From assembly GCF_020379485.1 (NCBI RefSeq), contig NW_026014690.1:1-64000 (forward strand): 64,000 nucleotides of DNA, read 5' to 3'. The notes below the pieces were generated by a model. It had not been told where the DNA came from. It did not search any database and was given only the letters and a program-made list of their open reading frames with translations. Shown here in pieces: positions 4,358 to 63,971 of the stretch; within the stretch, counting starts at the first letter, position 1, and each line of letters starts with the position of its first letter. Source of the DNA: Brassica napus (Eukaryota > Streptophyta > Magnoliopsida > Brassicales > Brassicaceae). A program made the translations under genes and the position numbers.

Positions 4358-4360
4358 AGT

Positions 4361-9122: not shown

Positions 9123-9127
9123 AGACA

Positions 9128-10658: not shown

Positions 10659-11436
10659 CATAAATTTAATGAGAGCATGATACTTGCTTCTGATCTTGGA
10701 CAGGTTAAACTGGCTGGTGAATCAAGCTTGAAAAAAGATGAACTGAAGGGTGAAGAACCGGTTAAGGAGAAACAAGCATCAAGTGAGGATATGTGGCCAT
10801 TCATCCCGGAGCAATGCCACACCAACCTGACGATCATTACCATGGAAGATCAACTTGCCTAGCAAGTCTCTTGGACGAATCTAGCAACTAGGCTAAGCTT
10901 TTGTGTGTGCTCTTTTTTCCCTTACTCTTGGTTTTGTCCCAAATGGGTTTTCCAGGGGAGGTTTTTAACGAGGCCACAACTTGCTTCACACTTATCCCAA
11001 GTGCTGAGTTCGATCCAAGGCTAAGAAGACTCATGACCTTATTTTATGTTTTACACTATAGTTTGTTTCCTTATTTGTATTTTCGTGACCTAAGTGGCGC
11101 CTGTTCCTTTGGTCCTATTTATATGTTTTCGCATGCCCCCTTTTGAGGCAGACTTTGAATAAACATAAACTTTTCTTTTAAAGAAAACCCTAGAGCTCTC
11201 AAGCTAGAACTCGCCTCCTTCTCTTTGCCTTGTGAGACCAGTACCTCCACGGCCTAGAGGAACCTTGTGTTGTATCACGAGCCTCCCATCTCTCGTGTGG
11301 GGCACTTCATCCCATCATACAGTTCCAGTTCAGATCCCTTGGTTGATTAGATCAGTCCATCCGGATCACCCTTGTGTTAGATCGGCTCCTTCTCTCTTGC
11401 TTGGAAACATATAGCCTTTGATAGCTTAGGCTTGTA
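10659..11436 (+). other. gypsy1 3' untranslated region and probable 3' LTR
   Basis: No gene. A hairpin-I module lies at 10909-10973. Downstream are a TATA-like TATTTATATG near 11114 and AATAAA near 11158, as expected of an LTR promoter and poly(A) region. The other LTR is outside the window, so the LTR start cannot be fixed. The sequence changes abruptly to satellite at 11437. Confidence 0.65.
10909..10973 (+). other. Hairpin-I RNA element of gypsy1
   Basis: Contains CTCTTTTTTCCC, then TTTTGTCCCAAATGGGTTTT flanked by arms CTCTTGG and CCAGGGGAG (pairing with G-U and small bulges), then GGTTTTTAACGAGG. This is the weakest stem of the set but keeps the same core and order as the copia elements, about 250 nt after the polyprotein stop. 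Confidence 0.6.
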
Positions 11437-26400: not shown

Positions 26401-28237
26401 ATCAGGTGATCCCAGTTTTCTGTTTGGGAATATGACAGCTTCTTTGTCATTCTAATCAAACCAGGATGAATCGCGATGTAAGAAGCTTGATTTTGATACA
26501 TAAAGTAGTGGAGAATCACCAGGAAGCTGAATAAATCTCATAGGAGTTAGGATGAAGAAGCTATCCCACTTTCAAATCAGGTGATCCCAGTTTTCCTGTT
26601 TGGGAATATGACAGCTTCTTTGTCATTCTAATCAAACCAGGATGAATCGCGATGTAAGAAGCTTGATTTTGATACATAAAGTAGTGGAGAATCACCAGGA
26701 AGCTGAATAAATCTCATAGGAGTTAGGATGAAGAAGCTATCCCACTTTCAAATCAGGTGATCCCAGTTTTCCTGTTTGGGAATATGACAGCTTCTTTGTC
26801 ATTCTAATCAAACCAGGATGAATCGCGATGTAAGAAGCTTGATTTTGATACATAAAGTAGTGGAGAATCACAGGAAGCTGAATAAATCTCATAGGAGTTA
26901 GGATGAAGAAGCTATCCCACTTTCAAATCAGGTGATCCCAGTTTTCCTGTTGGGAATATGACACTTCTTGTCATTCTAATCAAACCAGGATGAATCGGAT
27001 CGCGATGTAAGAAAGCTTGATTTGAACATAAAGTAGTGGAGAATCACCAGGAGCTGAATAAATCTCATAGGAGTTAGGATGAAGAAGCTATCCCACTTTC
27101 AAATCAGGTGATCCCAGTTTTTCCTGTTTGGGAATATGATAGCTTCTTTGTCATTCTAATCAAACAAGGATGAATCGCGATGTAAGAAGCTGATTTTGAT
27201 ACATAAAGTAGTGGAGAATCACCAGGAAGCTGAATAAATCTCATAGAGTTAGGATGATGAAGAAGCTATCCCACTTTCAAATCAGGTGATCCCAGTTTTC
27301 CTGTTGGGAATATGACAGCTTCTTTGTCATTCTAATCAAACCAGGATGAATCGCGATGTAAGAAGCTTGATTTTGATACATAAAGTAGTGGAGAATCACC
27401 AGGAAGCTGAATAAATCTCATAGGAGTTAGGATGAAGAAGCTATCCCACTTTAATCAGGAGGTGATCCCAGTTTTCCTGTTTGGGAATATGACAGCTTCT
27501 TTGTCATTCTAATCAAACCAGGATGAATCGCGATGATGTAAGAAGCTTGATTTTGATACATAAAGTAGTGGAGAATCCAGGAAGTGAATAAATCTCATAG
27601 GAGTTAGGATGATGAAGAAGCTATCCCACTTTCAAATCAGGTGATCCCAGTTTCCTGTTTGGGGAATATGACAGCTTCTTTGTCATTCTAATCAAACCAG
27701 GATGAATCGCGATGTAAGAAGCTTGATTTTGATACATAAAGTAGTGGAGAATCACCAGGAAGCTGAATTAAATCTCATAGGAGTTAGGATGAAGAAGCTA
27801 TCCCACTTTCAAATCAGGTGATCCCAGTTTCCTGTTTGGGAATATGACAGCTTTTTGTCATTCTAATCAAACCAGGATGAATCGCGATGTAAGAAGCTTG
27901 ATTTTGATACATAAAGTAGTGGAGAATCACCAGGAAGCTGAATAAATCTCATAGGAGTTAGGATGAAGAAGCTATCCCACTTTCAAATCAGGTGATCCCA
28001 GTTTTCCTGTTTGGGAATATGACAGCTTCTTTGTCATTCTAATCAAACCAGGATGAATCGCGATGTAAGAAGCTTGATTTTGATACATAAAGTAGTGGAG
28101 AATCACCAGGAAGTGAATAAATCTCATAGGAGTTAGGATGAAGAAGCTATCCCACTTTCAAATCAGGTGATCCCAGTTTTGTTTGGGAATATGACAGCTT
28201 CTTTGTCATTCTAATCAAACCGGATGAATCGCGATGT
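11437..28237. repeat. Brassica centromeric satellite array (176-bp CentBr-type), about 95 units
   Basis: Head-to-tail units repeat every 176 bp, measured for example from the TCAGGTGATCCC start at 14251 to 14427 to 14603. Each normal unit has one HindIII site (AAGCTT) and an abundant run GAATATGACAGCTTC. Units are highly alike. The main variable site is GGAAG-CTG-AAT, with CTG, TCG or TG; TCG occurs only between about 12265 and 17015. Small insertions and deletions become frequent after about 18770. I recognise the unit as the CentBr/canrep HindIII satellite of Brassica centromeres. It is not expected to code for protein; its known role is as the DNA on which centromeric chromatin sits. CentBr1 versus CentBr2 is not decided here. 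Confidence 0.96.
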
Positions 28238-28316
28238 TGTGTAAGTATAGATGGAAGACCAGGAAGCTGAGATTGAGACCTTAACTTAGAGTTTTGAACT
28301 GTCCCACTTTCAAACC
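28238..28316. repeat. Decayed satellite half-monomer at the right array edge
   Basis: After the last clear unit the text still matches the satellite in two blocks at the right spacing: ACCAGGAAGCTGA (28258-28270) and TCCCACTTTCAAA (near 28302-28314), with 31 nt between them against 33 in a normal unit. The rest is diverged. Decayed end monomers are typical where homogenisation stops. Confidence 0.75.
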
Positions 28317-29286
28317 AACAGTACCTAGTTGGGGAAGTTATCTGATCGGTATGAGAAGGTAACTTGTTTGAACAGAAGAGAGGAGGGATGAAATCGACCC
28401 TTAAGAGGGATAAGTGCTGTTAAAGGGATGGGATAAAGGGATCACTTTGACAGCTGTTATGATTGCTGGAAAGGAGAATTAGAAGTACCTTTATCTAGTG
28501 CCATGTGAGAAACGCAAGCCTAAGTGATTAAAAAGGCTAGTTCCAGCCTTGTCATTTGACTACACATGGTCTTAACTCATTTAGAATTTCTTGTTGCTCT
28601 CTCTATTAATACTTGTAAACTATCAGTTTAATAATGAGATGGTCTCTTCTCTTTTCTCTCACTTAAGATAGAAAAAGAAACGAACGAAGAGAAAAAGGAG
28701 AGAAGAAGAGAAGGCAAAAGAAAGAAAATAAAATAGAAGGAGGATTAAAAAAATGAGACATTCTATTCTTTTTTTTTTCTTAAAATGAAAGAAAGCTTCT
28801 AAAACAGAAAAAAAATCAAGAAAAAAGATGTAAGAAAAGGAGAAGAAAAAGGAGAAAAAGACAGAAAATCAATAGAAAAAAGGAATCCTTGTTTTTTTGA
28901 AGCAGACTAAATCTTCTAAAAAAAAGAAGGATAAAAAAATTTGAAAAAGTGGAAAAGAAAAGAAAATAAGACACCAAAAAAAGAAAAGGAAGGAAAATCC
29001 AAGACAAGAAAAAGGAAAGGAAAAAGAAAAAAAAGACGAGAGAAGAAAAAAACAGAAAAAATTGAAAAGAAAGAAGTAAAAAAAAAGAGAAAACGAAAGT
29101 TGAAATCTCATAGAAGAACAAGAAAGAACAAAGAAATCAAAAATAAAAAATCGCACGAAATTTTTTCTTTTCTTAATCTTTTAATTTTTCATCTGCTTAC
29201 CCTGATTGGTTGAATCATGCTCTAATACACCAACGTGTATATGGGTATCAGGAGCCAGGTTGCTAAAAGAGTGAGGAGTTGTAATA
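28317..29286. other. Unassigned DNA with a purine-rich tract
   Basis: No gene. From about 28660 to 29160 the plus strand is almost all A and G, which creates long meaningless open frames on both strands. At 29243-29262 GGGTATCAGGAGCCAGGTTG resembles a degenerate copia primer-binding site (TGGTATCAGAGCC), so part of this stretch could be an old copia LTR and leader in plus orientation. That reading is weak because no partner LTR is visible. Confidence 0.5.
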
Positions 29287-30108
29287 TGATCCTAGGACCC
29301 TTCTCTGGATGGTTGGATAGATCCTTGCATAAACGAATCAAAGACTCAAGTTTATCAAGGCTGTGGATCGAATGGTGACACAAGAGGCTGCGGAAAGGCT
29401 CCTTGATACTCCTAGGCTTAGATCGGATATGACACACCTTTCTAAAGCCCTTGGGCGTTGGATATTACACACCACAGACTGGATACTACTCACCAGACAC
29501 TCTCTAACTCGTGAAGCAAGGGAGAAGAAAAACAAGGGTTTAAACAAAAGATAACTTAGATTAGAATGAGGGTTTGTGATACACTTAAATAGAGAGATCC
29601 TTGTACATGCACAAGGTCTCGAAAACATAAGAAACTTAAAGGAACAGGCTCCACCTTGGTTTCAAGTAAAACACAACACTTAGACTAAACATAATAAAGA
29701 AGATAGATGATGAAGTCGGTCCAAGATGCCTTAGGCCGAGTGCATCCAAGATTATACAACTAGGAATGTGAAGTGAACTTATGGCCTCATAAAAAACCTT
29801 GATTAGAAAACCCAGTGGGACAAAACTAATCAAGGGAAAAGAGTATACCAAGCCACTTGCCTAGATGATGATCAGCTTGATGGTAAGATCAATGAATGGT
29901 GATGAGTTGTCTTGGTGGCTCAAGCTTCTCCAAGACAGTCTTCTTGCTTTTAGAGATCTTCAGTATGTTTCCAACGGCTTCCTTGAGTCTCCTTGTCATT
30001 GCACGAGTGATAGGACCTGTGGGAATGGCTAAGACAGCTTCCTCTTCAGCTGTGTATCTAGTCTCTCCTTCTTCATCTTTATCAACTAGCTGGTCCATGA
30101 TCATATCA
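29287..30108 (-). repeat. gypsy3 3' LTR (822 bp)
   Basis: On the minus strand it begins TGATATGATCATGG and ends near CCTAGGATCA. It contains the end of the polyprotein frame and a hairpin-I module (29784-29845). It is about 13 bp shorter than the partner LTR, with scattered indels. Confidence 0.85.
29784..29845 (-). other. Hairpin-I RNA element inside the gypsy3 3' LTR
   Basis: On the minus strand: TTTTCCC, arm CCTTGATTAG, core TTTTGTCCCACTGGGTTTT, arm CTAATCAAGG, then the GGTTTTT tail. The ten-base arms pair perfectly and share no sequence with the arms in the copia elements, although the core is the same. Confidence 0.75.
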
Positions 30109-35030: not shown

Positions 35031-35035
35031 CTTAA

Positions 35036-35870
35036 TGAGATCCTAGGACCCTTCTCTGGATGGTTTGGATAGATCCTTGCATAAACGAATCAAAGACTCA
35101 AGTTTATCAAGGCTGTGGATCGAATGGTGACACAAGAGGCTGCGGAAAGGCTCCTTGATACTCCTAGGCTTAGATCGGATATGACACACCTTTCTAAAGC
35201 CCTTGGGCGTTGGATATTACACACCAACAGACTGGATACTACTCACCAGACACTCTCTTAACTCGTGAAAGCAAGGGAGAAGAAAACACAAGGTTTAAAC
35301 AAAAGATAACTTAGATTAGAATGAGGGTTTGTGATACACTTAAATAGAGAGATCCTTGTACATGCACAAGGTCTCGAAAACATAAGAAAACTTAAAGGAA
35401 AAGGCTCCACACGGTTTCAAAGTAATAACACAACACTTAGACTAAAACATAATATAAGATAGATGATGAAGTCGGTCCAAGATGCCTTAGGCCGAGTTGC
35501 ATCCAAGATACATCAACTAGGAATGTGTAAGTGAACTTGATACCTCATTAAAAACCTTGATTAGAAAACCCAGTGGGACAAAACTAATCAGGGAAAAAGA
35601 GTATACCAAGCCACTTGCCTAGATGATGATCAGCTTGATGGTAAGATCATGAATGGTGATGAGTGTGTCTTGGTAGCTCAAGCTTCTACCAAGACAGTCT
35701 TCTTGCTTCTTAGAGATCTTCAGTATGTTTCCAACGGCTTCTTGAGTCTCCTTGTCATTGCACGAGTGATAGGACCTGTGGGAATGGCTAAGACAGCTTC
35801 CTCTTCAGCTAGTGTATCTTTAGTCTCTCCTTCTTCATCTTTATCAACTAGCTGGTCCATGATCATATCA
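35036..35870 (-). repeat. gypsy3 5' LTR (835 bp)
   Basis: Partner of 29287-30108. Minus-strand ends TGATATGATC and GGATCTCA. Contains the second copy of the hairpin-I module (35542-35605). It directly abuts the truncated LTR fragment that follows. Confidence 0.87.
35542..35605 (-). other. Hairpin-I RNA element in the gypsy3 5' LTR
   Basis: Minus strand: CTCTTTTTCCC, arm CCTGATTAG, core TTTTGTCCCACTGGGTTTT, arm CTAATCAAGG, tail GGTTTTTAATGAGG. One base of the first arm is missing compared with the other LTR copy. Confidence 0.72.
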
Positions 35871-36820: not shown

Positions 36821-37431
36821 TAATGAGATTAGATGAGATTAGAGAGTAGAATAGGTATTGAGAGATTAAGAGAGATTTGGTAAGAGATTAAGAGAGGTTT
36901 AGAAGAGATTGTGAGAGAAATGGGGAGATTAAGTATGATCCATGATGAACAAGAGAGAGAGACTAGAGAGAGAGTAACATAACTCGCATATTTAATTAAT
37001 GAGAGAGTGTTTACAATATATAGGAGGTGATACTAGGGTTTAAGAAGAGACTAAGCATGTGAGGTCAAGTCTAAGGGAGCCTTTAATTTGAACCGGACCA
37101 ATGAGCCTCTCCACACGCGTGGTCACTATGCTAAAAGTGAACCTTATCCTTCCAGCCTGTGCCAGCCTGTAGAGACGCTCTTCCTCTATCCATAAACGGT
37201 CATATGCCTTCTTTGGTCAAGGCAAAACATGATCAGACCGTGAACTTCTTCTCGCGGTAACATTTCTTTACCGCTTGGTCGATACCGTCTGTACGGCCGT
37301 ACGGCCATGGTACGGACCTGTACGGACCGGTACGGACGGTTCTCCCTAAGGCCAATCCTTCTCCTCTTCTCCACATCACAACCTCTTCAACCCTGAACAA
37401 CTCTCCTCATATTCCTCAGCTCATCTCAACA
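36821..37431 (-). repeat. copia1 3' LTR (611 bp)
   Basis: On the minus strand it starts TGTTGAGATGAG and ends in CTCATTA. It holds a tandem copy of TGAGATTAGA at 36824-36843 that the other LTR lacks. A TATA box (CTATATATTG on the minus strand) is near 37013-37022. A GTAC cluster lies upstream of it at 37290-37340. Confidence 0.93.
37290..37340 (-). promoter_or_regulatory. GTAC cluster in the copia1 3' LTR (possible SBP/SPL sites)
   Basis: Five GTAC cores lie within 51 bp, most as CCGTAC on one strand, in the U3 part about 270 bp upstream of the TATA box. GTAC is the core recognised by plant SBP-domain (SPL) factors. Function here is inferred. Confidence 0.55.
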
Positions 37432-37554
37432 CTCCCCCTCAAGCTTGACCATGTGGAACAAGTCAAGCTTGGAAGGATCATGAGCTCCTCCTCATTAAAA
37501 ACCTCATCAAAGAAAACCCATTGGGACAAAACTCTGATGAGGGAAAAAGAGTAA
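37432..37554 (-). other. copia1 3'-end module: hairpin I, hairpin II, polypurine tract
   Basis: Minus strand. Hairpin I at 37488-37554: CTCTTTTTCC, arm CCTCATCAGAG, core TTTTGTCCCAATGGGTTTT, arm CTTTGATGAGG (11 pairs, one G-U), tail GGTTTTTAATGAG. Hairpin II at 37440-37471: arms CAAGCTTGAC and GTCAAGCTTG, ten perfect pairs. The second arm runs straight into the polypurine tract GAGGGGGAG (37432-37440), next to the LTR. Confidence 0.8.
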
Positions 37555-37582
37555 GGACCTCATGATCAGGAGAGTGTATAGA

Positions 37583-42216: not shown

Positions 42217-42231
42217 CTGGCTCTGATACCA
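42217..42231 (-). other. copia1 primer-binding site
   Basis: Minus strand TGGTATCAGAGCCAG, directly adjoining the 5' LTR with no spacer. Complement of initiator Met tRNA. Confidence 0.93.
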
Positions 42232-42832
42232 TATGAGATTAGAGAGTAGAATAGGTATTGAGAGATTAAGAGAGATTTGGTAAGAGATTAAGAGAGGTTT
42301 AGAAGAGATTGTGAGAGAAATGGGGAGATTAAGTATGATCCATGATGAACAAGAGAGAGAGACTAGAGAGAGAGTAACATAACTCGCATATGTTAATTAA
42401 TGAGAGAGTGTTTACAATATATAGGAGGTGATACTAGGGTTTAAGAAGAGACTAAGCATGTGAGGTCAAGTCTAAGGGAGCCTTTAATTTGAACCGGACC
42501 AATGAGCCTCTCCACACGCGTGGTCACTATGCTAAAAGTGAACCTTATCCTTCCAGCCTGTGCCAGCCTGTAGAGACGCTCTTCCTCTATCCATAAACGG
42601 TCATATGCCTTCTTTGGTCAAGGCAAAACATGATCAGACCGTGAACTTCTTCTCGCGGTAACATTTCTTTACCGCTTGGTCGATACCGTCTGTACGGCCG
42701 TACGGCCATGGTACGGACCTGTACGGACCGGTACGGACGGTTCTCCCTAAGGCCAATCCTTCTCCTCTTCTCCACATCACAACCTCTTCAACCCTGAACA
42801 ACTCTCCTCATATTCCTCAGCTCATCTCAACA
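42232..42832 (-). repeat. copia1 5' LTR (601 bp)
   Basis: Partner of 36821-37431, with a GTAC cluster at 42691-42741 and a TATA box near 42414-42423. It ends CTCATA next to the primer-binding site. GAGGG follows at 42833-42837. Confidence 0.93.
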
Positions 42833-43243: not shown

Positions 43244-43851
43244 TGTTGAGTTGAGCTGAATATATATGTATGAAGAGCTAAGGAGTTGAAGAGGAAAGGA
43301 GATGAGGAAGCTTGAGAGAGTTTAGGGAGAGCATGGTACGGACGTCCGTACAAGGCCGTACAAGCCGTACAGTCCGTACCATCCAGCATCGACCAAGACT
43401 TACCTTGCATCAGCCAAGTAACACGGTAACTAAGGTAAAGGGAAGGAACTTACCTTGAGGCATCAGACCGTTTAGGGATAAGGTAGAGCGCGCCTTGACA
43501 GGCTGGAACAGCTGGAAAGGCAAGAGCATCTCGGTCCAAGATGCCAGATACTCCGCGCATGTGGAGAAGCTAATTGGCTAGTCCAAATGAGCTTATCCTC
43601 TCCTGATTGACCTCACATGCTTTAGTCTTCTCTTGATTTCGAAAACCCTTGTATGCTCTCTCTATATATTGTAACTCATCAACCCTAATGAAGATTATGC
43701 AGTTTGAGTCTCTCTAATCTCTTAGACACTATGCTTTTCTCTTAGACACTAAACGGCTCTATCTAGTCTCCTAATCTTTCACAAACTTCTCTTAATCACT
43801 TCCTAAACACTCTCTTTATTCTGTTTACTCTAAGGATCTCTTAATCTCATA
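43244..43851 (+). repeat. copia2 5' LTR (608 bp)
   Basis: Starts TGTTGAGTTGAGC and ends AATCTCATA. A GTAC cluster is at 43335-43380 and a TATA box TCTATATATT at 43661-43670, about 280 bp downstream of the cluster. Confidence 0.95.
43335..43380 (+). promoter_or_regulatory. GTAC cluster in the copia2 5' LTR (possible SBP/SPL sites)
   Basis: Five GTAC cores in 46 bp, including TCCGTACAA, an exact fit to the published SBP-box consensus TNCGTACAA, and GCCGTACAA. The same cluster is at 48811-48856 in the 3' LTR. Confidence 0.6.
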
Positions 43852-48579: not shown

Positions 48580-48600
48580 TCCCCTTAGCTGCAAGGTCTT

Positions 48601-48719
48601 TACTCTTTTTCCCTCATCAAAGTTTTATCCCATTGGGTTTTCTTTGGTGAGGTTTTTAATGAGGAAGATCTTGTGGCTGTCCAAGCTTAGACTTATACAA
48701 AGCTAAGCTTGAGGGGGAG
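48601..48719 (+). other. copia2 3'-end module: hairpin I, hairpin II, polypurine tract
   Basis: Hairpin I at 48601-48664: CTCTTTTTCC, arm CCTCATCAAAG, core TTTTATCCCATTGGGTTTT, arm CTTTGGTGAGG (11 pairs, one U-G), tail GGTTTTTAATGAGG. Hairpin II at 48682-48711: arms CAAGCTTAG and CTAAGCTTG, nine perfect pairs. The polypurine tract GAGGGGGAG (48711-48719) follows and abuts the 3' LTR. Confidence 0.82.
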
Positions 48720-49327
48720 TGTTGAGTTGAGCTGAATATATATGTATGAAGAGCTAAGGAGTTGAAGAGGAAAGGAGATGAGGAAGCTTGAGAGAGTTTA
48801 GGGAGAGCATGGTACGGACGTCCGTACAAGGCCGTACAAGCCGTACAGTCCGTACCATCCAGCATCGACCAAGACTTACCTTGCATCAGCCAAGTAACAC
48901 GGTAACTAAGGTAAAGGGAAGGAACTTACCTTGAGGCATCAGACCGTTTAGGGATAAGGTAGAGCGCGCCTTGACAGGCTGGAACAGCTGGAAAGGCAAG
49001 AGCATCTCGGTCCAAGATGCCAGATACTCCGCGCATGTGGAGAAGCTAATTGGCTAGTCCAAATGAGCTTATCCTCTCCTGATTGACCTCACATGCTTTA
49101 GTCTTCTCTTGATTTCGAAAACCCTTGTATGCTCTCTCTATATATTGTAACTCATCAACCCTAATGAAGATTATGCAGTTTGAGTCTCTCTAATCTCTTA
49201 GACACTATGCTTTTCTCTTAGACACTAAACGGCTCTATCTAGTCTCCTAATCTTTCACAAACTTCTCTTAATCACTTCCTAAACACTCTCTTTATTCTGT
49301 TTACTCTAAGGATCTCTTAATCTCATA
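48720..49327 (+). repeat. copia2 3' LTR (608 bp)
   Basis: Same length and text as 43244-43851 as far as I can see. GTAC cluster at 48811-48856; TATA box at 49137-49146. CTTCC follows. Confidence 0.95.
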
Positions 49328-51587: not shown

Positions 51588-52524
51588 TATGATTTTTAAA
51601 GAGATCTCTACTCTGGTTGTGTGTATGTGTGTATAAACTCCAATGGAGAAAGATGAGAGCTTAGTTCTAGGTGATTTAAGAACAGAGATGGGTGAGAGTG
51701 TTTAAGTGTTTAAGAGACTAAAGAGAATGAGATTAAGAGACTGAGAGACTAGAGAGAGAGACTGAGAGAATAAGAGACTGAAGATTAGGGAAGGAGAAGG
51801 GAAACCCCCTTACTCACTTAGTTCATACAAAATGCCACATATAAGCTTATATATGCTCTTACAAGATGCAAATCATAAACCTAAATCTAATGGCTGATAT
51901 AACTTGAATTTAAATGGATGGATAGGATGGAGAGGTGAGGCTGGTCGTGATTCGTCATTGGCTGTGCTCTTGTTGCTTCATGATTGGCTCATTTGAATCT
52001 GGTCAATGTGGAGACTGGTGCCTGATTGGTTGCTGTAAGGCTCCCTTGAACTTTCCCATATATCAGACTAGATACATGGTCAATACACAGCTCTTGGCCA
52101 GCCTGTTCCAGCCTGTCTTTGGCGCCAGCTTCCTTCTTTTGTCTTCTTCTCTTAAGAGCTTACCTCTGCCCTATTTTTGCACCAACCTCAAATGTGCTCC
52201 AATGGTCGACTGGTGAACTTTCGAGATGTCTCGGTCCGTACGGATCCGTACGGTCCGTACAACGTCCGTACCAAATCCGTACGGCCAGTCCCTAAGTTTG
52301 CACACTTGCCCAAATACTCTTCTAAGTCCCTCCTGGACTTGGCCCTATCTTTGCACAACCATCAGATCACTTCTGGACACAAAGAGACACTCCTGAAGCT
52401 TGATAGACAATCCCTAAAGGACTTGCCCTATCTTTGTACCAGACCTAACTCCTCCATACTTCTCCTTTCACTCCATTTCTATTCTTCAAGTTAACACAAG
52501 CTCTATCTTCTCTTCAGTTCAACA
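51588..52524 (-). repeat. Element A 3' LTR (937 bp)
   Basis: Minus strand TGTTGAACTGAAG ... AAAAATCATA. A TATA box (GCATATATAAG, minus strand) is near 51845-51858. A GTAC cluster at 52235-52284 has five cores, one TCCGTACAA. Confidence 0.93.
52235..52284. promoter_or_regulatory. GTAC cluster in the element A 3' LTR
   Basis: Five GTAC cores in 50 bp; TCCGTACAA matches the SBP-box consensus TNCGTACAA. Repeated at 63196-63246 in the severed part of the other LTR. Confidence 0.58.
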
Positions 52525-52647
52525 CTCCCCCTCAAGCTTGACTTTAGGAGATCCTAAGCCAAGCTTGGAACTCTGAAGAGTCTCCCTCATTAAAAACCTT
52601 ACAAGGAAAACCCATTGGGACAAAACCTTGCAAGGGAAAAAGAGTAG
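52525..52647 (-). other. Element A 3'-end module: hairpin I, hairpin II, polypurine tract
   Basis: Minus strand. Hairpin I at 52585-52647: CTCTTTTTCC, arm CCTTGCAAGG, core TTTTGTCCCAATGGGTTTT, arm CCTTGTAAGG (ten pairs, one G-U), tail GGTTTTTAATGAGG. Hairpin II at 52533-52567: arms CAAGCTTGGC and GTCAAGCTTG (ten pairs, one G-U), leading into GAGGGGGAG next to the LTR. Confidence 0.8.
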
Positions 52648-53467
52648 AGCTCTCCAAAGCCTAGGGATTGGCCAGTGAACTCTTGTGCCTTAGAACCAGT
52701 GTGGTTGGACACAAGAAGTTCTGGATCACGGCCTAAACTGGTGCAGCAACTCATCAAGACCTTGCGCACTAAACAACTCAGCTTCACCTCTTCATGAAAC
52801 CGGTTTGAAGTCTCCCCCTCTCAACTGACTTCACAGCCATCTTAGAGAAGCTAGGACACGACCAGATCATCTTCAAAACACTAGTGAGACTTATCAACAC
52901 TTCACACACGGCTTGCCCTCTTCATCGACCAGGTTTGGAATCTCCCCCTCTCAACTAACTTCACAGCCTCTTTAGAGAAGCTAAGAGATGACCCGGAACA
53001 TCTTTAGTGAGGCTCAAGCAATGGTACCTGATACATTATCCCAAAGGTGCATCAGTACCTATCAAAAACAAGAAAATGAATATCCTGCATCACACTTGAT
53101 GCACACAATCTCACAATTCAATCATAATCATTTTACGTATCTTTTCAAGCACAAGCAATGAATAAGATGAATAAAAAGGTTTTAAAAGTCTAAGGGAACT
53201 TCCCTTGTGTTTTTGTGAGTTTCCTAACTCGGCCAATGGACCATCTTCATGGCATCACCAACTTCTTGGAAAGGCAGAATGGATTCATCAGCTTCTCCTC
53301 AATCACCTCTCATTGAAGCCGCATTGATGGAGAGCGTTCTTCTTCACTCGCCAAGACTGCTCTGAACAGCCTCTTGCCTAGACACGCCACTATCTTGGTC
53401 CGGTTGATGATCCTTGTAGAAGCCTTTGCAAAGACTTGTTACTGACCATGGATCATATGCATTAAGA

Positions 53468-53511
53468 CTCCCCCTCAAGCTTAGAACCAAGACTAGAAGG
53501 AGCTAAGCTTG
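53468..53511 (-). other. Internal polypurine tract with hairpin II in element A
   Basis: Minus strand arms CAAGCTTAG and CTAAGCTTG followed by GAGGGGGAG, the same arrangement as at the 3' end of copia2, yet about 940 bp inside A. Also present at the same place in B. Confidence 0.72.
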
Positions 53512-56500
53512 TGATGATCCTATGCATCTCCATGGTCTAATAACTATCATCTTTTATGATAGCTTTCTTCTTGTGAGTTTTCTCTCTTCCTTAACCAGGA
53601 ATTAGGGTGTTTGAATCACCATAGAGAGTCTCACAAGACACGCCTCTCATTGCATAATGACCCATGCTACACTTCCTGTAGACTAAGGACTAGATATGTC
53701 CAATGGTATTATGCAATGGCCATCTCTCATTGCATACTCAATCACACTACACTTCCTGTAGATTATGGACTAACATGTCCTAGTGATGATATGCAATGGC
53801 ACAAGATCTTTGTCTTTACATTCTTGGTTGTTGGCGAGTTTCATGTATCACATTCCTTGTGTACCTAACACCACCACAACTCAATGCAAGATCAGATCAT
53901 CCCATTGGGATCAAACCAAGATTATCCATCCTGTTTGATCACCAATGCCACAATAATATAGGATACTTGAGACAAGCTAGATAATCAAGACAATCAAGCA
54001 AAGACAATCAATTCAGTTTTGTTTTTTTTTTTTAAATGCAACAATAGATGAATGCATTAGGTTACACACTAACTATATGAATGAAACAGATTCAATCCAA
54101 ATGGAACACAAGTCTAGATGATACTTATGCAATCAAGACGACAAGAGTGACTCAATTCATGCTTATGCTCACTAGTTTTTATCAATGCCAATGATCCAAA
54201 TAGCTTAGACAAACTTCTAAATGCTTATAAGACATCACTGATGGATTTAACTATGGCAAAGCAACAATCAGACCTTTAGGCTCATTTTTAAATGCATTAC
54301 TACATGAATGCACAATCTTAAAGCTTTAGCTATATGAATGCAGCAGGTTCAATCCATGAGCAATATTAAGGCTATGCACAACAGTTTCAATCAAAACCAA
54401 TGATGCAAGCAACTTAGACAATTTCTAATTGATGCAAGACTTTCATTGAAGGATTAAACATAGGCAATAGCATCAGATAACAATAGGATTGAACTTAGAC
54501 AGTATGAGATATGATTATGTATGCAAAATAACTTACCAATCATGATGCAAGCAGCAGAGACATTCTACTCAATTCTACAACACATTCATGATGATTCAAG
54601 CTATGACAACACTCAAGACAATGCAATAAACAAAACATGAGATTCTGGGACTCTAGACATTACTTACTATCAATATGACAATGCAACAGCAAAACAATTT
54701 CAGTGCAATTAGCCTAGACATACTACTAGAAGCTATATACACTTAATGGAATTAGGGAAAGCACATAGTATAATCAGGAGTTAAACCTATCAAGACATAT
54801 TAAGATAGATGAGATTAGGTTTACTCCCTTGGTTAAGATGATGAGGAGTGGTTCTCAGAGTTACCACTTGAATCCTTACTTCTTCTTCTTCTCTTATTGC
54901 AATCACCCTTCTGAAGTCACCACCATGATGGAATGCTTGTGGATGCTTCAGCTACTTCTTCAATCACCTCACAATAGAAGCCGCCTTGATAGAGTAGCCT
55001 TCTTCTTCACACAGCCAAGAGTGCTCTGTCTTAGTTTGAGCACCCTCTTGAATAGGCACGCCACTGCCTAGACCCGGTTGGCTTCTTCTTCTGATACTTG
55101 CAATGTTAAGAAGAAGAGCACGAGTGAGTTCTACAACCATCTGTGCTTCTCCCTTTCTTGTAACACCTCTCCATTGGACACACAATGGGCATCATTCTTT
55201 CTCTTTCAACTCGGATTTGATGATGAACTAGGAGCACCTTTTGTGAACCTGAAACATCACTCAAACTCTAGCCAAGATAAGACACAATTGCGTTGGGATC
55301 AATCCTTGACTTCATCAAGTTTGATCACCAATGTCTCAAGCTTTATAACATTAGATAGAATCAAGACAATGTCAAGTTCTTATCTATGCAAGCAACCATT
55401 CTCTAAATACTAAGCAAGACTTTATCAGATTCAAGTCAAAGTATTTAGGCAATTTTAATCACTCCTTAATATGCAACTTAGACTTTAATCTAAATGCAAC
55501 AATCCAAAGCAGCAACAAGGCAGTATGCATTAATCTTAACAGTTTCTAACACATGAAAGCAAGAATGATTAGATATAATCTATCATCTTAACAAGACAAG
55601 TTAATTTAGAGCTGTCATTAAGCATTTACCATTTTCAATAGTATTGATGTCAAAACTTGATTAATCATCAAGTTTGATTCCCAATAACACAAGCAATGCA
55701 ACAGATAGACACAAGGCATTATCAAGTTCTATTCTTTGCAAGCTAGCTCTCTAAGAACAATCAAGATCCTAACAGATTCAAGACAAGTTACTTAGGCATT
55801 TTTTAAAAGCTTCTTTACTCAGCAATTTAGACATGAATCTAATGCCTCAATGGAAGACAGCCACAAGACTATATGCAACAGCTTTCAATTCCGTTTCAAT
55901 CCATGTATGCAAGCAGATTCAATTAATCACAACAAGCATCACTATGATTCGGAGCTAAGCATATTAACAATCTTAATCACCAAACCAGGCTCTTTAAGCA
56001 TACTGAGACAGATTCTCAAAGTATTCATTTAGCAATCTTTAAACAATTCTCAGGTTTTCAATCACATCACAACCAGTCAATATACTCAAGCTTTATACAA
56101 GAGAAAGAGGTTTCTTACAGCCAAGGAACTAGTGTTAGTTCCTTGAAACTCCATAGAGCATGGCAAGACAGTGAGCTGTTGGTGTCGATTCCAACTTCTC
56201 CTTCTCCCATGGACCTTTCTCTTGAACTCTCCATGTCAAAGACCCCACCTTTCTTCATGTTAAGTTCGCCACATCAGTACCAGCTGAAAGCTATCACCTT
56301 TCTTCTTGGACAGTGGATAAGACCTAGCTTGGACATAGCTTTGAGCTTGGTTGATGAGATCGCCTCATACACCATTGCTTCCAAGGTTCTTTCTTCTTCA
56401 TGGGCTTCATGAGAGAGTGTAGGTCGGCCAGAGACAGCTTCTGGACACCATGGATGAGCACACCTTCTTCTTGAAGAGTAGAACAACCGGCTGGACCATG

Positions 56501-56592
56501 GAGCTTCTTCTTGGCTTCAAGCGACATGGAGGAGAGCTATGAGCTTCAGCAGAAGCAAGAACCAAGTTCTAATGAACCTGGCTCTGATACCA

Positions 56593-57167
56593 TATGATTT
56601 TTAAAGAGATCTCTACTCTGGTTGTGTGTATGTGTGTATAAACTCCAATGGAGAAAGATGAGAGCTTAGTTCTAGGTGATTTAAGAACAGAGATGGGTGA
56701 GAGTGTTTAAGTGTTTAAGAGACTAAAGAGAATGAGATTAAGAGACTGAGAGACTAGAGAGAGAGACTGAGAGAATAAGAGACTGAAGATTAGGGAAGGA
56801 GAAGGGAAACCCCCTTACTCACTTAGTTCATACAAAATGCCACATATAAGCTTATATATGCTCTTACAAGATGCAAATCATAAACCTAAATCTAATGGCT
56901 GATATAACTTGAATTTAAATGGATGGATAGGATGGAGAGTGAGGCTGGTCGTGATTCTTCATTGGCTGTGCTCTTGTTGCTTCATGATTGGCTCATTTGA
57001 ATCTGGTCAATGTGGAGACTGGTGCCTGATTGGTTGCTGTAAGGCTCCCTTGAACTTTCCCATATATCAGACTAGATACATGGTCAATACACAGCTCTTG
57101 GCCAGCCTGTTCCAGCCTGTCTTTGGCGCCAGCTTCCTTCTTTTGTCTTCTTCTCTTAAGAGCTTAC
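56593..57167 (-). repeat. Element A 5' LTR, part next to the primer-binding site
   Basis: First 575 bp from the internal side, cut by element B; the rest is at 63126-63486. The primer-binding site (TGGTATCAGAGCCAGG, minus strand) is at 56577-56592. The TATA region stays here (near 56850) while the GTAC cluster is now 6 kb away. Confidence 0.93.
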
Positions 57168-58095
57168 TGTTGAACTGAAGAGAAGATGGAGCTTGTACAA
57201 TGATAGGGCAAGCTCTAGAAGATGTCTAGAAGAGTTCAATCAAGCTTCAGAAGTGTTCTGAAGAAGTTATCTTGTGAAGATAAGTCTAGGAAAGACTTAG
57301 ACTGATCATGTGAGGGCTTTGGAGGAGTTAGAGAGAAGATGGAAGTGTGGTGCAAAGATAGGGCCAAGTCCAGGAAGGACTTAGAAGAGTATTTGGGCGA
57401 GTGTGCAAACTTAGGGACTGGCTGTACGGACCGTACGGATCCGTACGGACCGAGACATCCCGAAAGTTCACCAGTCAACCATTTGAGCACATTTGAAGTT
57501 GGTGCAAAAATAGGGCACTGGTGAAACTCTTAAGAGAAGAAGACAAAGGAGAGGCTGGCGAGTGACAGGCTGGAAAGGAGAGTCTCTTGCTGTAAAGTAA
57601 AAGCAAAAGGAGACCATGTATCTAGCAAAAGAAGTGGGCAGATTCATGGGAGCCTTTAGCTAGCCAATAAGGAGCCAGCCTTCCCTTGACCAGATTCAAA
57701 TGGACCAATTATCCATCAGGAACAGCACAGCCACGACCAAGACCATCTGTCCATCTCATCCATTCATTTAAATTCAAGTTATAACAGCCCTTAGATTTAG
57801 GTTTATGATTGCAAGTTGTAAAGAGCATATATAAGCTCATAAGTGATGTTTTGTAACTCTTAAGTGAGTAAGGGGGTTTCCCTTCTCCTTCTCTAATCTG
57901 AAACACTTTCTTAGTCTCTCTAGTCTCTCATCCTGAATCTCTATACACGTTCTCAGTCTTGTTACTAATCTCTTAAACACTTAGACACACAAACACTCAT
58001 CAAACTTCTTTTCTCTCAAATCGCTTCCAAGCTCTCTCTCTTTACCCATTTGGGTTTCATACACACATACAACCTGAGTACTCTTAAACCTCATA
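57168..58095 (+). repeat. Element B 5' LTR (928 bp)
   Basis: Starts TGTTGAACTGAAG, ends AAACCTCATA. GTAC cluster of three CCGTACGG-type cores at 57424-57449; TATA box GCATATATAAG near 57825-57835. Confidence 0.95.
57424..57449. promoter_or_regulatory. GTAC cluster in the element B 5' LTR
   Basis: Three GTAC cores in 26 bp, arranged as a near-palindrome of CCGTACGG. Same cluster at 62449-62474. About 375 bp upstream of the TATA box. Confidence 0.5.
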
Positions 58096-58111
58096 TGGTA
58101 TCAGAGCCAGG
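58096..58111 (+). other. Element B primer-binding site
   Basis: TGGTATCAGAGCCAGG directly after the LTR. Agreement with copia2 continues for some bases beyond the tRNA complement (TTCATT). Confidence 0.93.
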
Positions 58112-61100
58112 TTCATTAGAACTTGGTTCCAGCTTCCGCTAAGCTCAAAGCTCACTCCCATGCCATTTCCAAACCAAGAAGAAGCTTCATGGTCATTTGG
58201 CTGTTCAACCTCTTCAAGAAGAAGGTGTGCTCATCAATGGCGTCCAGAAGCTGTTCTTGGTCGTTCTCCACTCTCTCATGGTCGTCCTGAAGAAAGAAGG
58301 CCATTGGAAGCATGTCCAAGCCATTCCCATTCACTGTCCAAGAAGAAAGGTGAAAGCTTTCAACTTGTACCTGGTATGGCGACTCAAAAATGAAGAGAGG
58401 AGGTGTCTTAGGCATGGTGGGTTCAAGAGAAAGGTCCATGAAAGAAGGAGATGTAGGAGTTGACACCAACAGCTCGGATCTTCCCATGTACTAAGGAGTT
58501 TCAAGGAACTAACACTAGTTCCTTGGCTGTAAGGAAATCTCTTTCTCTTGTATAAAGCTTGAGTGTATGAACAGGTTGTGATGTTGTGATGTGATTGAAA
58601 ACCTGAGGATTGTTTAAAAGATTGCTAAAAATGAAGTTGCTTTAGAATCTGTCCCAGGATACTTTAAGAGTCTTGTTTGGGTATTGAAATTGTTTAGTAT
58701 GCTTAGCTCCGGTTCATAGTGATGCTTGTTGTGATTAATTAAATCTGCTTGCATACATGGAGTGAAACCGAATTTAAAGCTGTTGCATATAGTCTTGTGG
58801 CTGTTTTACATTGAAGTATTAGATTCATGTCTAAGTACTGAGTAAAGAAGCTCTTAAGAGTGCCTAAGTAACTTGTCTTGAATCTGTTAGGATCTTACTT
58901 GTACTTAGAGATTTAGCTTGCAAAGAATAGAACTTGATAATGCCTTGTGTCTATCTGTTGCATTGCTTGTGATATTGGGAATCAAACTTGATAATTTATT
59001 AATCAAGTTTTGACATCAATACTATTGAAAATGGTTAAATGCTTAATGTCAGTTCTAAATTAACTTGTCTTGTTAAGATGATAGATTATATTATCTAATC
59101 ATGCTTGCTTTCATGAGTTAGAAACTGATTAAGATTAATGCATACTGCCTTGTATTGTTGCATTTAGATTAAAATCTAAGTTGCATAAAATTGCCTAAAT
59201 ACTTTGACTTGAATCTGATAAGGTCTTGCTTAGTATTTAGAGAATGGTTGCTTGCATAGATAAGAACTTGACATTGTCTTGATTCTATCTAATGTTATAA
59301 AGCTTGAGACATTGGTGATCAAACTTGATGAAGTCAAGGATTGATCCCAATGCAATTGTGACTTATCTTTGCTAGAGTTTGAGTGATGTTTCAGGTTCAC
59401 AAAAGGTGTTCCTAGTTCATCATCAAATCCGAGTTGAAAGAGAAAGAATGATGCCCATTGTGTGTACAATGGAGAAGTGTTACAAAAAGGGAGAAGCACA
59501 GATGGTTGTAAAACTCACTGGTGTTCTTCTCCTTAACATTGCAAGTACCTGAAGAAGAAGCTAACCGGGTCTAGGCAGTGGCGTGCCTATTCAAGAGGGT
59601 GCTCAAACTAAGACAGAGCACTCTTGGCTGTGTGAAGAAGAAGGCTACTCTATCAAGGCGGCTTCTATTGTGAGGTGATTGAAGAAGTAGCTGAAGCATC
59701 CACAAGCATTCCATCATGGTGGCAAATTCAGAAGGGTGATTGCAATAAGAGAAGAAGAAGAAGTGAGGATTCAAGTGGCAACGACCACTCCTCATCACCT
59801 TAAACAAGGGAGTAAACCTAGTCTCATCTATCTTAATATGTCTTGATAGGTTTATCTCCTGATTATACTATGTGCTTTCCCTAAGAGTTTATAGCTTCTA
59901 AGTAGAATGTCTAGGCTAATTGCACTGAGATTGTTTTGCTGCTGCATTGTCTTATTGATAGTAAGTAATGTCTAGAGTCCCAGAATCTCATGTTCTGTTT
60001 ATTGCATTGTCTTGAGTGTTGTCATAGCTTGAATCATCATGAATGTGTTGTAGAATTGAGTAGAATGTCTCTGCTGCTTGCATCATGATTGATAAGTTAT
60101 TTTGCATACATAAGCATATCTCATACTGTCTAAGTTCAATCCTAGTGTTATCTGATGCTATTGCCTATGTTTAATCCATCAATGAAAGTCTTGCATCAAT
60201 TAGAAATTGTCTAAGTTGCTTGCATCATTGGTTCTGATTGAAACTGTTGTGCAGAGCTTTAATATTACTCATGGATTGAACCTGTTGCATTCATATAGCT
60301 AATGCTTTAAGATTGTGCATTCATGTAGTAATGCATTTAAAAATGAGCCTAAATTGCAAATGTACTGATATAAGCTTTGCATTTAGAGAACTGTATAGAA
60401 CTTGCATTGTCATTGTTAGAAATTGAAATCTGCTTGTCTTGACTCAGTCCAGTTCTGATTGTTGCTATGCCATAGTTAAATCCATCAGTGATGTCTTATA
60501 AGCATTTAGAAGTATGTCTAAGCTACTTGAATCATTGGCTTTGATAAAACTAGTGAGCATAAGCATGAATTGAGTCACTCTTGTCGCCTTAATTGCATAA
60601 GTATCATCTAGACTTGTGTTCCATTTGGATTGAATCTGTTTCATTCATATAGTTAGTGTAACCTAATGCATTCATCTATTGTTGCATTTAAAAAAAAAAA
60701 CTGAATTGATTGTCTTTGCTTGATTGTCTTGATTGTCTAGCTTGTTTCAAGTATCATATATTATTGTGGCATTGGTGATCAAACAGGATGGATGATCTTG
60801 GTTTGATCCCAATGGGATGATCTGATCTTGCATTGAGTTGTGGTGGTGTTAGGTACACAAGGAATGTGATACATGAAACTCGCCAACAACCAAGAATGTA
60901 AAGACAAAGATCTTGTGCCATTGCATATCATCACTAGGACATGTTAGTCCATAATCTACAGGAAGTGTAGTGTGATTGAGTATGCAATGAGAGATGGCCA
61001 TTGCATAATACCATTGGACATATCTAGTCCTTAGTCTACAGGAAGTGTAGCATGGGTCATTATGCAATGAGAGGCGTGTCTTGTGAGACTCTCTATGGTG

Positions 61101-62070
61101 ATTCAAACACCCTAATTCCTGGTTAAGGAAGAGAGAAAACTCACAAGAAGAAAGCTATCATAAAAGATGATAGTTATTAGACCATGGAGATGCATAGGAT
61201 CATCACAAGCTTAGCTCCTTCTAGTCTTGGTTCTAAGCTTGAGGGGGAGTCTTAATGCATATGATCCATGGTCAGTAACAAGTCTTTGCAAAGGCTTCTA
61301 CAAGGATCATCAACCGGACCAAGATAGTGGCGTGTCTAGGCAAGAGGCTGTTCAGAGCAGTCTTGGCGAGTGAAGAAGAACGCTCTCCATCAATGCGGCT
61401 TCAATGAGAGGTGATTGAGGAGAAGCTGATGAATCCATTCTGCCTTTCCAAGAAGTTGGTGATGCCATGAAGATGGTGCATTGGCCGAGTTAGGAAACTC
61501 ACAAAAACACAAGGGAAGTTCCCTTAGACTTTTAAAACCTTTTTATTCATCTTATTCATTGCTTGTGCTTGAAAAGATACGTAAAATGATTATGATTGAA
61601 TTGTGAGATTGTGTGCATCAAGTGTGATGCAGGATATTCATTTTCTTGTTTTTGATAGGTACTGATGCACCTTTGGGATAATGTATCAGGTACCATTGCT
61701 TGAGCCTCACTAAAGGTGTTCCTGGTCATTTCCTAGCTTCTCTAAGGTGGCTGTGAAGTCTGTTGAGAGGGGGAGATTCAAACCAGTTCTATGAAGAGGG
61801 CAAGCCGTGTGTGAAGTGTTGATCAGCCTCACTGGTGTTTTGAAGATGATCTGGTCGTGTCCTAGCTTCTCTAAGATGGCTGAGAAGTCAGTTGAGAGGG
61901 GGAGACTTCAAACCGGTTCCATGAAGAGGTGAAGCTGAAGTGTGAAGTGTGCGCAAAGCTGTGAAGAGTTGCTGCACCTATTAGGCCGTGATCCAGAGCT
62001 TCTTGTGTCCAACCACACTGGTTCTAAGGCACAAGAGCTCACTGGCCAATCCCTAGGCTTTGGAGAGCTC
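58112..62070 (+). other. Element B internal region, no recognisable protein
   Basis: No gag or pol motif in any frame. Open frames are short; the longest near the 5' end is 58197-58463 (88 codons, basic, unknown). Agreement with A varies along the length: 60849-61106 matches A so closely that the antisense frames translate alike, while 59900-60750 is full of indels. Repeated blocks occur near 60900-61080 and 61690-61960. A second polypurine unit is at 61206-61249. Confidence 0.8.
61206..61249 (+). other. Internal polypurine tract with hairpin II in element B
   Basis: Arms CAAGCTTAG (61206-61214) and CTAAGCTTG (61233-61241) pair perfectly and run into GAGGGGGAG (61241-61249). It lies about 940 bp upstream of the true polypurine tract. 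It could serve as a second plus-strand primer site or be a relic of an older 3' end. Confidence 0.72.
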
Positions 62071-62192
62071 TACTCTTTTTCCCTTGCAAGGTTTTGTCCC
62101 AATGGGTTTTCCTTGTAAGGTTTTTAATGAGGGAGACTCTTCAGAGTTCCAAGCTTGGCTTAGGATCTCCTAAAGTCAAGCTTGAGGGGGAG
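62071..62192 (+). other. Element B 3'-end module: hairpin I, hairpin II, polypurine tract
   Basis: Hairpin I at 62071-62133: CTCTTTTTCC, arm CCTTGCAAGG, core TTTTGTCCCAATGGGTTTT, arm CCTTGTAAGG, tail GGTTTTTAATGAGG. Hairpin II at 62150-62184: arms CAAGCTTGGC and GTCAAGCTTG. Polypurine tract GAGGGGGAG at 62184-62192 abuts the 3' LTR. Confidence 0.82.
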
Positions 62193-63120
62193 TGTTGAAC
62201 TGAAGAGAAGATGGAGCTTGTACAATGATAGGGCAAGCTCTAGAAGATGTCTAGAAGAGTTCAATCAAGCTTCAGAAGTGTTCTGAAGAAGTTATCTTGT
62301 GAAGATAAGTCTAGGAAAGACTTAGACTGATCATGTGAGGGCTTTGGAGGAGTTAGAGAGAAGATGGAAGTGTGGTGCAAAGATAGGGCCAAGTCCAGGA
62401 AGGACTTAGAAGAGTATTTGGGCGAGTGTGCAAACTTAGGGACTGGCTGTACGGACCGTACGGATCCGTACGGACCGAGACATCCCGAAAGTTCACCAGT
62501 CAACCATTTGAGCACATTTGAAGTTGGTGCAAAAATAGGGCACTGGTGAAACTCTTAAGAGAAGAAGACAAAGGAGAGGCTGGCGAGTGACAGGCTGGAA
62601 AGGAGAGTCTCTTGCTGTAAAGTAAAAGCAAAAGGAGACCATGTATCTAGCAAAAGAAGTGGGCAGATTCATGGGAGCCTTTAGCTAGCCAATAAGGAGC
62701 CAGCCTTCCCTTGACCAGATTCAAATGGACCAATTATCCATCAGGAACAGCACAGCCACGACCAAGACCATCTGTCCATCTCATCCATTCATTTAAATTC
62801 AAGTTATAACAGCCCTTAGATTTAGGTTTATGATTGCAAGTTGTAAAGAGCATATATAAGCTCATAAGTGATGTTTTGTAACTCTTAAGTGAGTAAGGGG
62901 GTTTCCCTTCTCCTTCTCTAATCTGAAACACTTTCTTAGTCTCTCTAGTCTCTCATCCTGAATCTCTATACACGTTCTCAGTCTTGTTACTAATCTCTTA
63001 AACACTTAGACACACAAACACTCATCAAACTTCTTTTCTCTCAAATCGCTTCCAAGCTCTCTCTCTTTACCCATTTGGGTTTCATACACACATACAACCT
63101 GAGTACTCTTAAACCTCATA
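62193..63120 (+). repeat. Element B 3' LTR (928 bp)
   Basis: Same length and text as 57168-58095 by eye. GTAC cluster at 62449-62474; TATA box near 62850-62860. CTTAC target duplication follows. Confidence 0.95.
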
Positions 63121-63125
63121 CTTAC

Positions 63126-63486
63126 CTCTGCCCTATTTTTGCACCAACCTCAAATGTGCTCCAATGGTCGACTGGTGAACTTTCGAGATGTCTCGGTCCG
63201 TACGGATCCGTACGGTCCGTACAACGTCCGTACCAAATCCGTACGGCCAGTCCCTAAGTTTGCACACTTGCCCAAATACTCTTCTAAGTCCCTCCTGGAC
63301 TTGGCCCTATCTTTGCACAACCATCAGATCACTTCTGGACACAAAGAGACACTCCTGAAGCTTGATAGACAATCCCTAAAGGACTTGCCCTATCTTTGTA
63401 CCAGACCTAACTCCTCCATACTTCTCCTTTCACTCCATTTCTATTCTTCAAGTTAACACAAGCTCTATCTTCTCTTCAGTTCAACA
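63126..63486 (-). repeat. Element A 5' LTR, outer part severed by B
   Basis: Continues 56593-57167 after element B and the second CTTAC. Holds the GTAC cluster (63196-63246) and the minus-strand TGTTGAACTG terminus. CTGAG target duplication follows at 63487-63491. Confidence 0.93.
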
Positions 63487-63491
63487 CTGAG

Positions 63492-63830: not shown

Positions 63831-63851
63831 GCCCCTTAACCATGGAGTCTC

Positions 63852-63971
63852 CACTCTTTTTCCCTCATCAAGGTTTTATCCCATTGGGTTTTCCTTGGTG
63901 AGGTTTTTAATGAGGGAGGTCTTCATGGTTTCCAAGCTAGACAAGTTCTCTTAGTCTAGCTTGAGGGGGAG
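63852..63971 (+). other. copia3 3'-end module: hairpin I, hairpin II, polypurine tract
   Basis: Hairpin I at 63852-63916: CTCTTTTTCC, arm CCTCATCAAGG, core TTTTATCCCATTGGGTTTT, arm CCTTGGTGAGG (11 pairs, one U-G), tail GGTTTTTAATGAGG. Hairpin II at 63933-63963: arms CAAGCTAGAC and GTCTAGCTTG, ten perfect pairs whose inner bases differ from copia1 on both sides. Polypurine tract GAGGGGGAG at 63963-63971. Confidence 0.82.

Follow-up and report, generated by a model that had tools for sequence, protein, structure and literature searches.

The Copia93 element Evade of Arabidopsis carries an ENE with four U-tracts in the spacer between its ORF and its LTR (Li et al. 2025, PMC12501189). According to that report, this ENE forms a triplex with A20 in melting experiments, and changing U to C or altering the closing pairs abolishes the triplex (PMC12501189). 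It also states that the ENE raises RNA stability and transposition, that the deadenylase CCR4a opposes it, and that RNA half-life, extrachromosomal DNA, and copy number all fall when the ENE is deleted (PMC12501189). A total of about 200 ENEs was reported in 2016; most came from plants and fungi, and their association with LTR retrotransposons was strong (Tycowski, Shu & Steitz, as cited in PMC12501189). A crystal structure is available for a rice double ENE (dENE), in which an upper and a lower ENE are described; the upper one contains four contiguous UAU triples, closed by a G-C pair (PMC12707130). PMC12846552, PMC10855403, PMC10078130, and PMC10308706 were consulted as well.

Here, we report on a hairpin that recurs in LTR retrotransposons of a 64-kb window, by which we mean the whole stretch of DNA that was analysed. 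Its anatomy makes it very probably a double-domain ENE, predicted to clamp the poly(A) tail of its own transcript in triple helices. Structural features of a dENE are found in it: internal loops with U-tracts on both sides, G-C pairs flanking the tracts, and two stacked ENE domains within one hairpin. Within the window, this reading is based on the fold, the covariation, the conserved U-tracts, the G-C closures, the position, and the retention of the hairpin in elements without ORFs. That it would also bind and protect the tail, and increase transposition, we infer from the published work on the same class. A preliminary description of this DNA knew of no role reported for such a fold; it does, however, match the (double) ENE, whose role has been demonstrated in a plant copia element (PMC12501189).

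The Elements and Anatomy of Their Hairpin

Self-comparison and Pfam matches resolve the window into nested LTR retrotransposons that adjoin a satellite array. The array, placed by self-comparison at 11436-28330, has a 176-bp unit that we take to resemble the Brassica centromere repeat. Three elements are of copia type, each with an RVT_2 domain: copia1 on the minus strand (Pfam and self-comparison; LTRs 36824-37431 and 42224-42832), copia2 on the plus strand (LTRs 43244-43851 and 48720-49327, 100% identical), and copia3, also on the plus strand and split by nested insertions. Over their full length, copia1 and copia2 are only 72% identical. On the plus strand, gypsy1 has an RVT_1 domain in one piece, whereas its other piece carries the integrase domains H2C2 and rve, the latter scoring slightly below the Pfam cut-off. 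On the minus strand, gypsy3 (LTRs 29282-30108 and 35033-35870) lies outside the Pfam scan and is related to gypsy1 by self-comparison. The element that splits gypsy1, at 1663-9124, has 2.7-kb LTRs that are 99.6% identical and contain subrepeats, and only about 2 kb of internal sequence; no ORF of at least 200 aa was found inside it, and a covariance model search of the window found no dENE there.

The two remaining elements, A and B, are without ORFs. An ORF search found none of at least 200 aa in either, and no stretch between stop codons in their internal regions exceeds 154 aa, the length of the longest. Element A, on the minus strand, contains B inside its 5' LTR; B is on the plus strand, with 100% identical LTRs at 57168-58095 and 62193-63120. 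The nesting order is copia3 [A [B]], with 57168-63120 inside 51588-63488 and the latter inside copia3. In self-comparison, the LTRs of A are 99.65-100% identical in pieces and those of B are identical, so both insertions look recent.

Seven of the eight delimited elements (copia, gypsy, and the two ORF-less ones) carry the hairpin. There are eight sites, each on the sense strand of its element, in seven elements because gypsy3 has one site inside each LTR. The preliminary description had proposed just this, a recurrent hairpin with a constant core at eight sites in seven retrotransposons of two superfamilies; all the sites are present, and an alignment of seven rows has 41 invariant core columns across the superfamilies. 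(Element A is omitted from the alignment, its core being the same as that of B.) Its view that an RNA structure near the 3' end of the transcript, common to both superfamilies, is under selection stood as well, although it covered only the middle of the structure and missed the outer stem. The U-rich stretches, which it took for constant linear sequence, in fact form two internal loops, around which the whole structure is built.

From the outside inward, the hairpin is laid out as a family-specific outer stem, CUC/GAG, a lower internal loop, a middle stem, an upper internal loop, and an apex. Element B may serve as the example, all coordinates being on the plus strand. The whole hairpin spans 62056-62148, and the fold of 62051-62154 has an energy of -40.5 kcal/mol for the sense strand and -26.6 kcal/mol for the antisense strand. 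A covariance model trained on seven of the eight window sites, which scores 83.2-104.2 bits over the eight, matches 62051-62154 with 95.6 bits; the fold of 62041-62163 has a z of -4.16. The 5' arm of the outer stem (62056-62071) pairs with 62132-62148 with one bulge, so that the arms reach 16-17 nt each. The duplex of the 25-nt flanks has an energy of -19.9 kcal/mol, and a fraction of 0.0009 of 2200 control pairs is as strong.

Within this stem, CUC and the first U-tract (UUUUU) occupy 62073-62080, the latter as the 5' side of the lower loop. The 5' arm of the middle stem, CCTTGCAAGG (62082-62091), makes 10/10 pairs with the 3' arm, CCTTGTAAGG (62111-62120). The second U-tract (UUUUGU; 62092-62097) and the third (UUUU; 62107-62110) are the 5' and 3' sides of the upper loop, and the predicted fold places an apical hairpin, CCC-AAU-GGG, at 62098-62106 between them. 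The fourth U-tract (UUUUU), with AAU and GAGG after it, occupies 62121-62132. The polypurine tract (PPT), AGGGGGAG, lies at 62185-62192, and the 3' LTR starts at 62193.

The same plan is found at the other sites. The hairpin of A (52563-52666, minus strand) has the core of B and scores 95.6 bits though it was not a training row (z -4.26). The values are 104.2 bits and z -6.26 for copia2 (48582-48686, core 48603-48664, plus strand), 101.1 bits and z -4.61 for copia1 (37468-37572, core 37551-37490, minus strand), and 99.4 bits and z -6.43 for copia3 (63833-63937, core 63854-63915, plus strand). Both copies of gypsy3 are on the minus strand and in U3: that of the 3' LTR (29764-29866; 83.2 bits, z -2.66) has a first U-tract of four U and lies upstream of a TATA-like box, and that of the 5' LTR (35521-35624; 97.5 bits, z -3.33) has lost one stem base. 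The gypsy1 copy (10891-10995, plus strand, presumed U3) is diverged. It scores 83.8 bits, its outer stem is weak, its middle stem is bulged, and its fold barely beats shuffles (37/200 were as good); with a z of -0.91, the weaker stem already ascribed to this element is borne out.

Across the sites, the lower internal loop is UUUUU(C)//UUUUUAAY, with six U on the 5' side in gypsy1. In the 3' LTR copy of gypsy3 it is UUUU(C)//UUUUUUAU, where UUUUUUAU replaces UUUUUAAU; AAY is kept at 7/8 sites. The upper internal loop, UUUURU//UUUU, is present at all eight, and the U-tracts are 4-6 U long, in two loops at every site. The middle stem measures 10-11 bp and varies in sequence by family. G-C pairs border the U-rich loops, and the closures provided by the middle stem and the apex are invariant in 7/7 alignment rows. 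CUC and GAG are found at 8/8 sites; the lower closure is CG in six rows and UG in one of the MAFFT alignment, in which gypsy1 seems to be shifted by one column at this point. In the 3' LTR copy of gypsy3, CUC and GAG are paired in one fold and unpaired when a shorter stretch is folded.

In the predicted folds, which come from a program that cannot model poly(A) triplexes, the four U-tracts fall in two internal loops at 8/8 sites and have a mean unpaired probability of 0.74-1.0. At seven of the eight sites, the AA of AAY is paired with two U from tract 1 in the minimum-energy fold, whereas the centroids leave these U open. For copia2 and copia3, the minimum-energy apex takes a different register, which costs tract 3 one U.

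The apex is CCC-AnU-GGG, with the CCC/GGG columns invariant in 7/7 rows. An apex so nearly invariant and near-palindromic (CCCA-n-TGGG) could instead belong to a dimerisation or packaging hairpin, kissing between two genomic RNAs, and a cis-acting role in packaging would also explain why the ORF-less A and B have kept the hairpin. However, most CCC/GGG bases are paired within the apical stem in all eight minimum-energy folds, and four conserved U-tracts with their G-C closures would be left unexplained, so we regard this as improbable.

Pairing, Chance, and Sharing Between Superfamilies

The arms had been said to differ between families and yet to pair, and this was confirmed. When the 3' arms were swapped among six families, the native outer arms ranked 1/720 and the native middle arms 2/720. 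By pair counting, 91.0% of cells were paired vs 79.1% after shuffling, and 9/21 pairs had changed on both sides, 7 of these 9 in the outer stem; 0/500 shuffles were as high on any of five measures, and the optimum was at slide 0. The middle stem is fully paired in the five arm pairs counted (11/11 in each of copia1-3, 10/10 in A/B, and 10/10 in the 3' LTR copy of gypsy3), a count from which gypsy1, with its bulge, and the 5' LTR copy of gypsy3, with its lost base, are omitted. Against 2200 control pairs, at most 0.14% are as strong as the outer arms in copia1, copia2, copia3, A, or B. Those of gypsy3 and gypsy1 do not stand out, 6% and 16% of controls being equally strong for the former and 41% for the latter.

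The outer and middle stems are thus kept by pairing rather than by sequence, weakly so for gypsy1. The evidence for covariation is good and remains below R-scape grade, because it comes from a small number of rows, some of them related (copia1-3), and from the very rows that yielded the structure. It bears on the notion that the highly conserved linear core is a DNA sequence, be it promoter, enhancer, or integrase signal, that folds by accident. Arms that change while pairing is kept, and a sense RNA that folds better than the antisense at 8/8 sites, leave this notion hardly any probability.

How easily might such a structure arise by chance? A descriptor of four T-runs with pairable stretches between them matched 7/8 sites, missing gypsy1. 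It matched nowhere else in the window, and 30 block-shuffled versions gave 0 matches. Please note that perfect 11/11 pairing at the spacing of the hairpin occurs at six plus-strand places outside the satellite, two of which are these hairpins; such pairing alone therefore proves little. The full motif was found 0 times in viral contigs, among which no relative of the copia2 pol was found either. The core palindrome alone occurs in 31 viral and at least 120 prokaryotic stretches. Among the 151 palindrome matches listed, eight have the loose upstream motif, six the loose downstream motif, and two both, and the covariance model gave no more than 22.5 bits on these viral and prokaryotic loci; we take the matches as chance.

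Reading the hairpin region of B as peptide gave two short unnamed ENA proteins, which add little. Rfam, which may or may not hold a plant dENE model, gave 0 matches at gathering thresholds over the window, and around B it gave four unrelated families below threshold, none of them on the hairpin. A match to Rfam is a test of the library and no defining feature of an ENE.

What the elements share outside the hairpin is limited. The internal regions of A and B were set against copia1 and copia2 and against two copia3 pieces (the earliest copia3 fragment was left out), and match them only in a 31-nt PBS end (copia2), in the block from the hairpin to the PPT, and in one stretch of 68 nt, which is a PPT-like duplicate with an E of 0.01. 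Comparing the 3' ends of gypsy3 and gypsy1 with copia1-3, A, and B gave 10 matches. Every one contains the hairpin and stops at its GAGG; those of gypsy3 to copia2 and to copia3 extend about 50 nt further upstream of the core. The hairpin looks selected as a unit. Since a bare ENE seems not to need the CUC, AAY, R-U, and GAGG, we lean towards cassette exchange or a tighter tertiary constraint over independent convergence.

As the conservation of the core exceeds what a bare ENE appears to need, a protein may bind too. Could protein binding be the whole role? The hairpin would then be a protein-binding RNA element downstream of pol, for pyrimidine-tract binding or, like a constitutive transport element, for nuclear export. 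The UUUUUCCC and UUUURUCCC tracts, the 3' position, and conservation above the apparent need of a triplex would suit such an element. Nevertheless, poly(A) triplexes directly explain tandem, symmetric, G-C-closed U-loops, and experiments on a copia element of a plant provide a precedent (PMC12501189); we give protein binding on its own little chance.

Within the dENE reading, a broader proposal can be put forward tentatively. The dENE may be a near-fixed cassette exchangeable among copia, gypsy, and ORF-less elements, with tail clamping general for the LTR retrotransposons of this plant and not a speciality of Evade. The conserved bases other than U (in the lower loop an extra C and AAY, in the upper loop R-U) and the fixed one-turn spacer might then define a subclass of dENE with its own contact to the tail end.

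Position and Proposed Mechanism

The core starts 23 nt after the pol stop in copia2 (ORF ending at 48579) and 31 nt after it in copia1 (ORF ending at 37583). Between the end of the core and the PPT there are 47-52 nt in copia1-3, A, and B, a figure that should replace the earlier one of 40-45 nt. In gypsy3, the pol frame crosses the PPT into U3 (LTR 29282-30108, minus strand) and stops before the hairpin, which is followed by the TATA-like box; being in U3, the hairpin should occur once per genomic RNA, near its 3' end. A similar frame runs past a PPT-like tract in gypsy1 (10380-10658), in the same order as in gypsy3, the LTR of gypsy1 being inferred because the second LTR falls outside the window. 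The hairpin is upstream of a TATA-like box in the six elements measured (the LTR of copia3 runs off the window). It ends 144-731 nt upstream of that box, ignoring a second TATA-like match of copia2 at LTR offset 17, and across such a gap the tail would have to loop back. The common rule appears to be that the hairpin comes after pol and before the presumed poly(A) site, a position that would fit the 3' part of a transcript expected to be polyadenylated.

Its proximity to the PPT in the five copia-type elements might suggest a structure that presents the PPT to RNase H for plus-strand priming, as in the PPT inverted repeat of Sireviruses. We find this very improbable: neither arm reaches as far as the PPT, the right arm of the Sirevirus repeat being in the LTR, and a separate short hairpin adjoins the PPT in these same elements. 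The reading is also hard to keep given gypsy3, where the hairpin is on the other side of the PPT, as it probably is in gypsy1.

The second short hairpin, CAAGCTTGAC..GTCAAGCTTG and variants next to the PPT AGGGGGAG, lies at 62150-62192, 52526-52570 (minus strand), 48680-48719, 37432-37470 (minus strand), and 63931-63971. We make no claim of covariation for it, as its arm-swap rank is only 4/24. About 1 kb upstream of the real PPT, B (61186-61253) and A (53464-53531) have a second PPT-like octamer with its own hairpin, which in B lies within a larger inverted repeat; it recalls the multiple PPTs of Sireviruses. Repeated palindromic boxes of CCGTAC/GTACGG type are present in U3 of copia1 (37340-37290, minus strand), copia2 (48805-48860), A (52270-52230, minus strand), and B (62445-62480), and are reminiscent of the CGG-CCG repeats of Sireviruses.

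As a double ENE, the hairpin would be present a single time in each genomic RNA, downstream of pol and ahead of the poly(A) site. Its two U-rich loops (approximately U5//U5 and U4//U4), one helical turn apart on the 10-11 bp stem, would take up the poly(A) tail of the same RNA, forming with it two short U.A-U triple helices, each with the neighbouring G-C pairs as its cap; a stem of near-constant length and free sequence fits such a one-turn spacing of triplexes. In the geometry proposed here, the tail would run antiparallel to the 3'-side U-tracts, through the lower loop first and then the upper. Once clamped, it would be expected to resist deadenylases of CCR4/CAF1 type, and a protected tail would mean longer-lived genomic RNA and more RNA entering reverse transcription.

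This would extend tail clamping from one Arabidopsis element to seven of the eight delimited elements in a 64-kb window and to two superfamilies. Given this spread, and ORF-less elements that keep little else, poly(A) protection is a plausible general requirement of plant LTR elements. The linear core motif is probably widespread in plant elements, and the double ENE offers a testable mechanism for it. The compact core and the covariance model are usable for surveying plant genomes.

Relation to Known Systems

Longer strings of the motif gave no match in the literature, and shorter strings gave no plant retrotransposon paper, by title, among the matches listed. By title, PMC12501189 was the only paper on an ENE of plant retrotransposons among the matches listed, and a Brassica query returned none on the subject. 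Going by these searches, and leaving aside the ENE element lists of 2016 and 2021, the hairpin is undescribed for these elements.

Two other retrotransposon hairpins were considered and ruled out. The PPT-flanking inverted repeat of Sireviruses (Bousios et al. 2010, PMC2829016) is likewise near the 3' end of plant copia elements and accompanies the same PPT octamer, AGGGGGAG. Its left arm adjoins the PPT and its right arm is in the LTR, and no U-rich loops were found in the sections that describe it (PMC2829016); here, both arms are upstream of the PPT in the copia-type elements and inside U3 in gypsy3. The Conserved Hairpin Site of fungal GalEa elements is described as a hairpin directly after the 5' LTR, with no PBS (PMC3601003 / PMC5445492). 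The present hairpin is 3', and it is TGGTATCAGAGC that comes after the 5' LTR of copia2, A, and B.

U-rich loops are described in other RNAs too. In KSHV PAN RNA and in MALAT1/MENbeta, a U-rich internal loop is described as gripping an A-tract and stabilising the 3' end of the RNA (PMC12846552, PMC10855403). These are non-coding RNAs from other hosts, and PAN is described there with one U-rich loop. The dENE of the rice hAT transposon TWIFB1 (Torabi et al. 2021, via PMC12707130 and PMC10855403) has an upper and a lower U-rich loop, as here; its upper loop is reported to have four UAU triples and a G-C closure, and the upper loop in the window is U4//U4 with G-C closures. That dENE belongs to the mRNA of a DNA transposon, whereas ours is in a retrotransposon genome, and we liken the two by the description of their loops.

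The ENE of Evade has four U-rich tracts as internal loops, as do the hairpins of the window, and the adjacent G-C pairs are essential in it. We draw the likeness from the published description, and the setting differs: here, seven of eight delimited elements in one window have the hairpin, including gypsy elements, with it in U3, and elements without ORFs. The ENE class and its role in a plant copia element were known; new are its presence in seven of eight elements, the gypsy copies in U3, its retention in ORF-less elements, and a gypsy-copia match at the 3' end that is confined to the hairpin and its edge.
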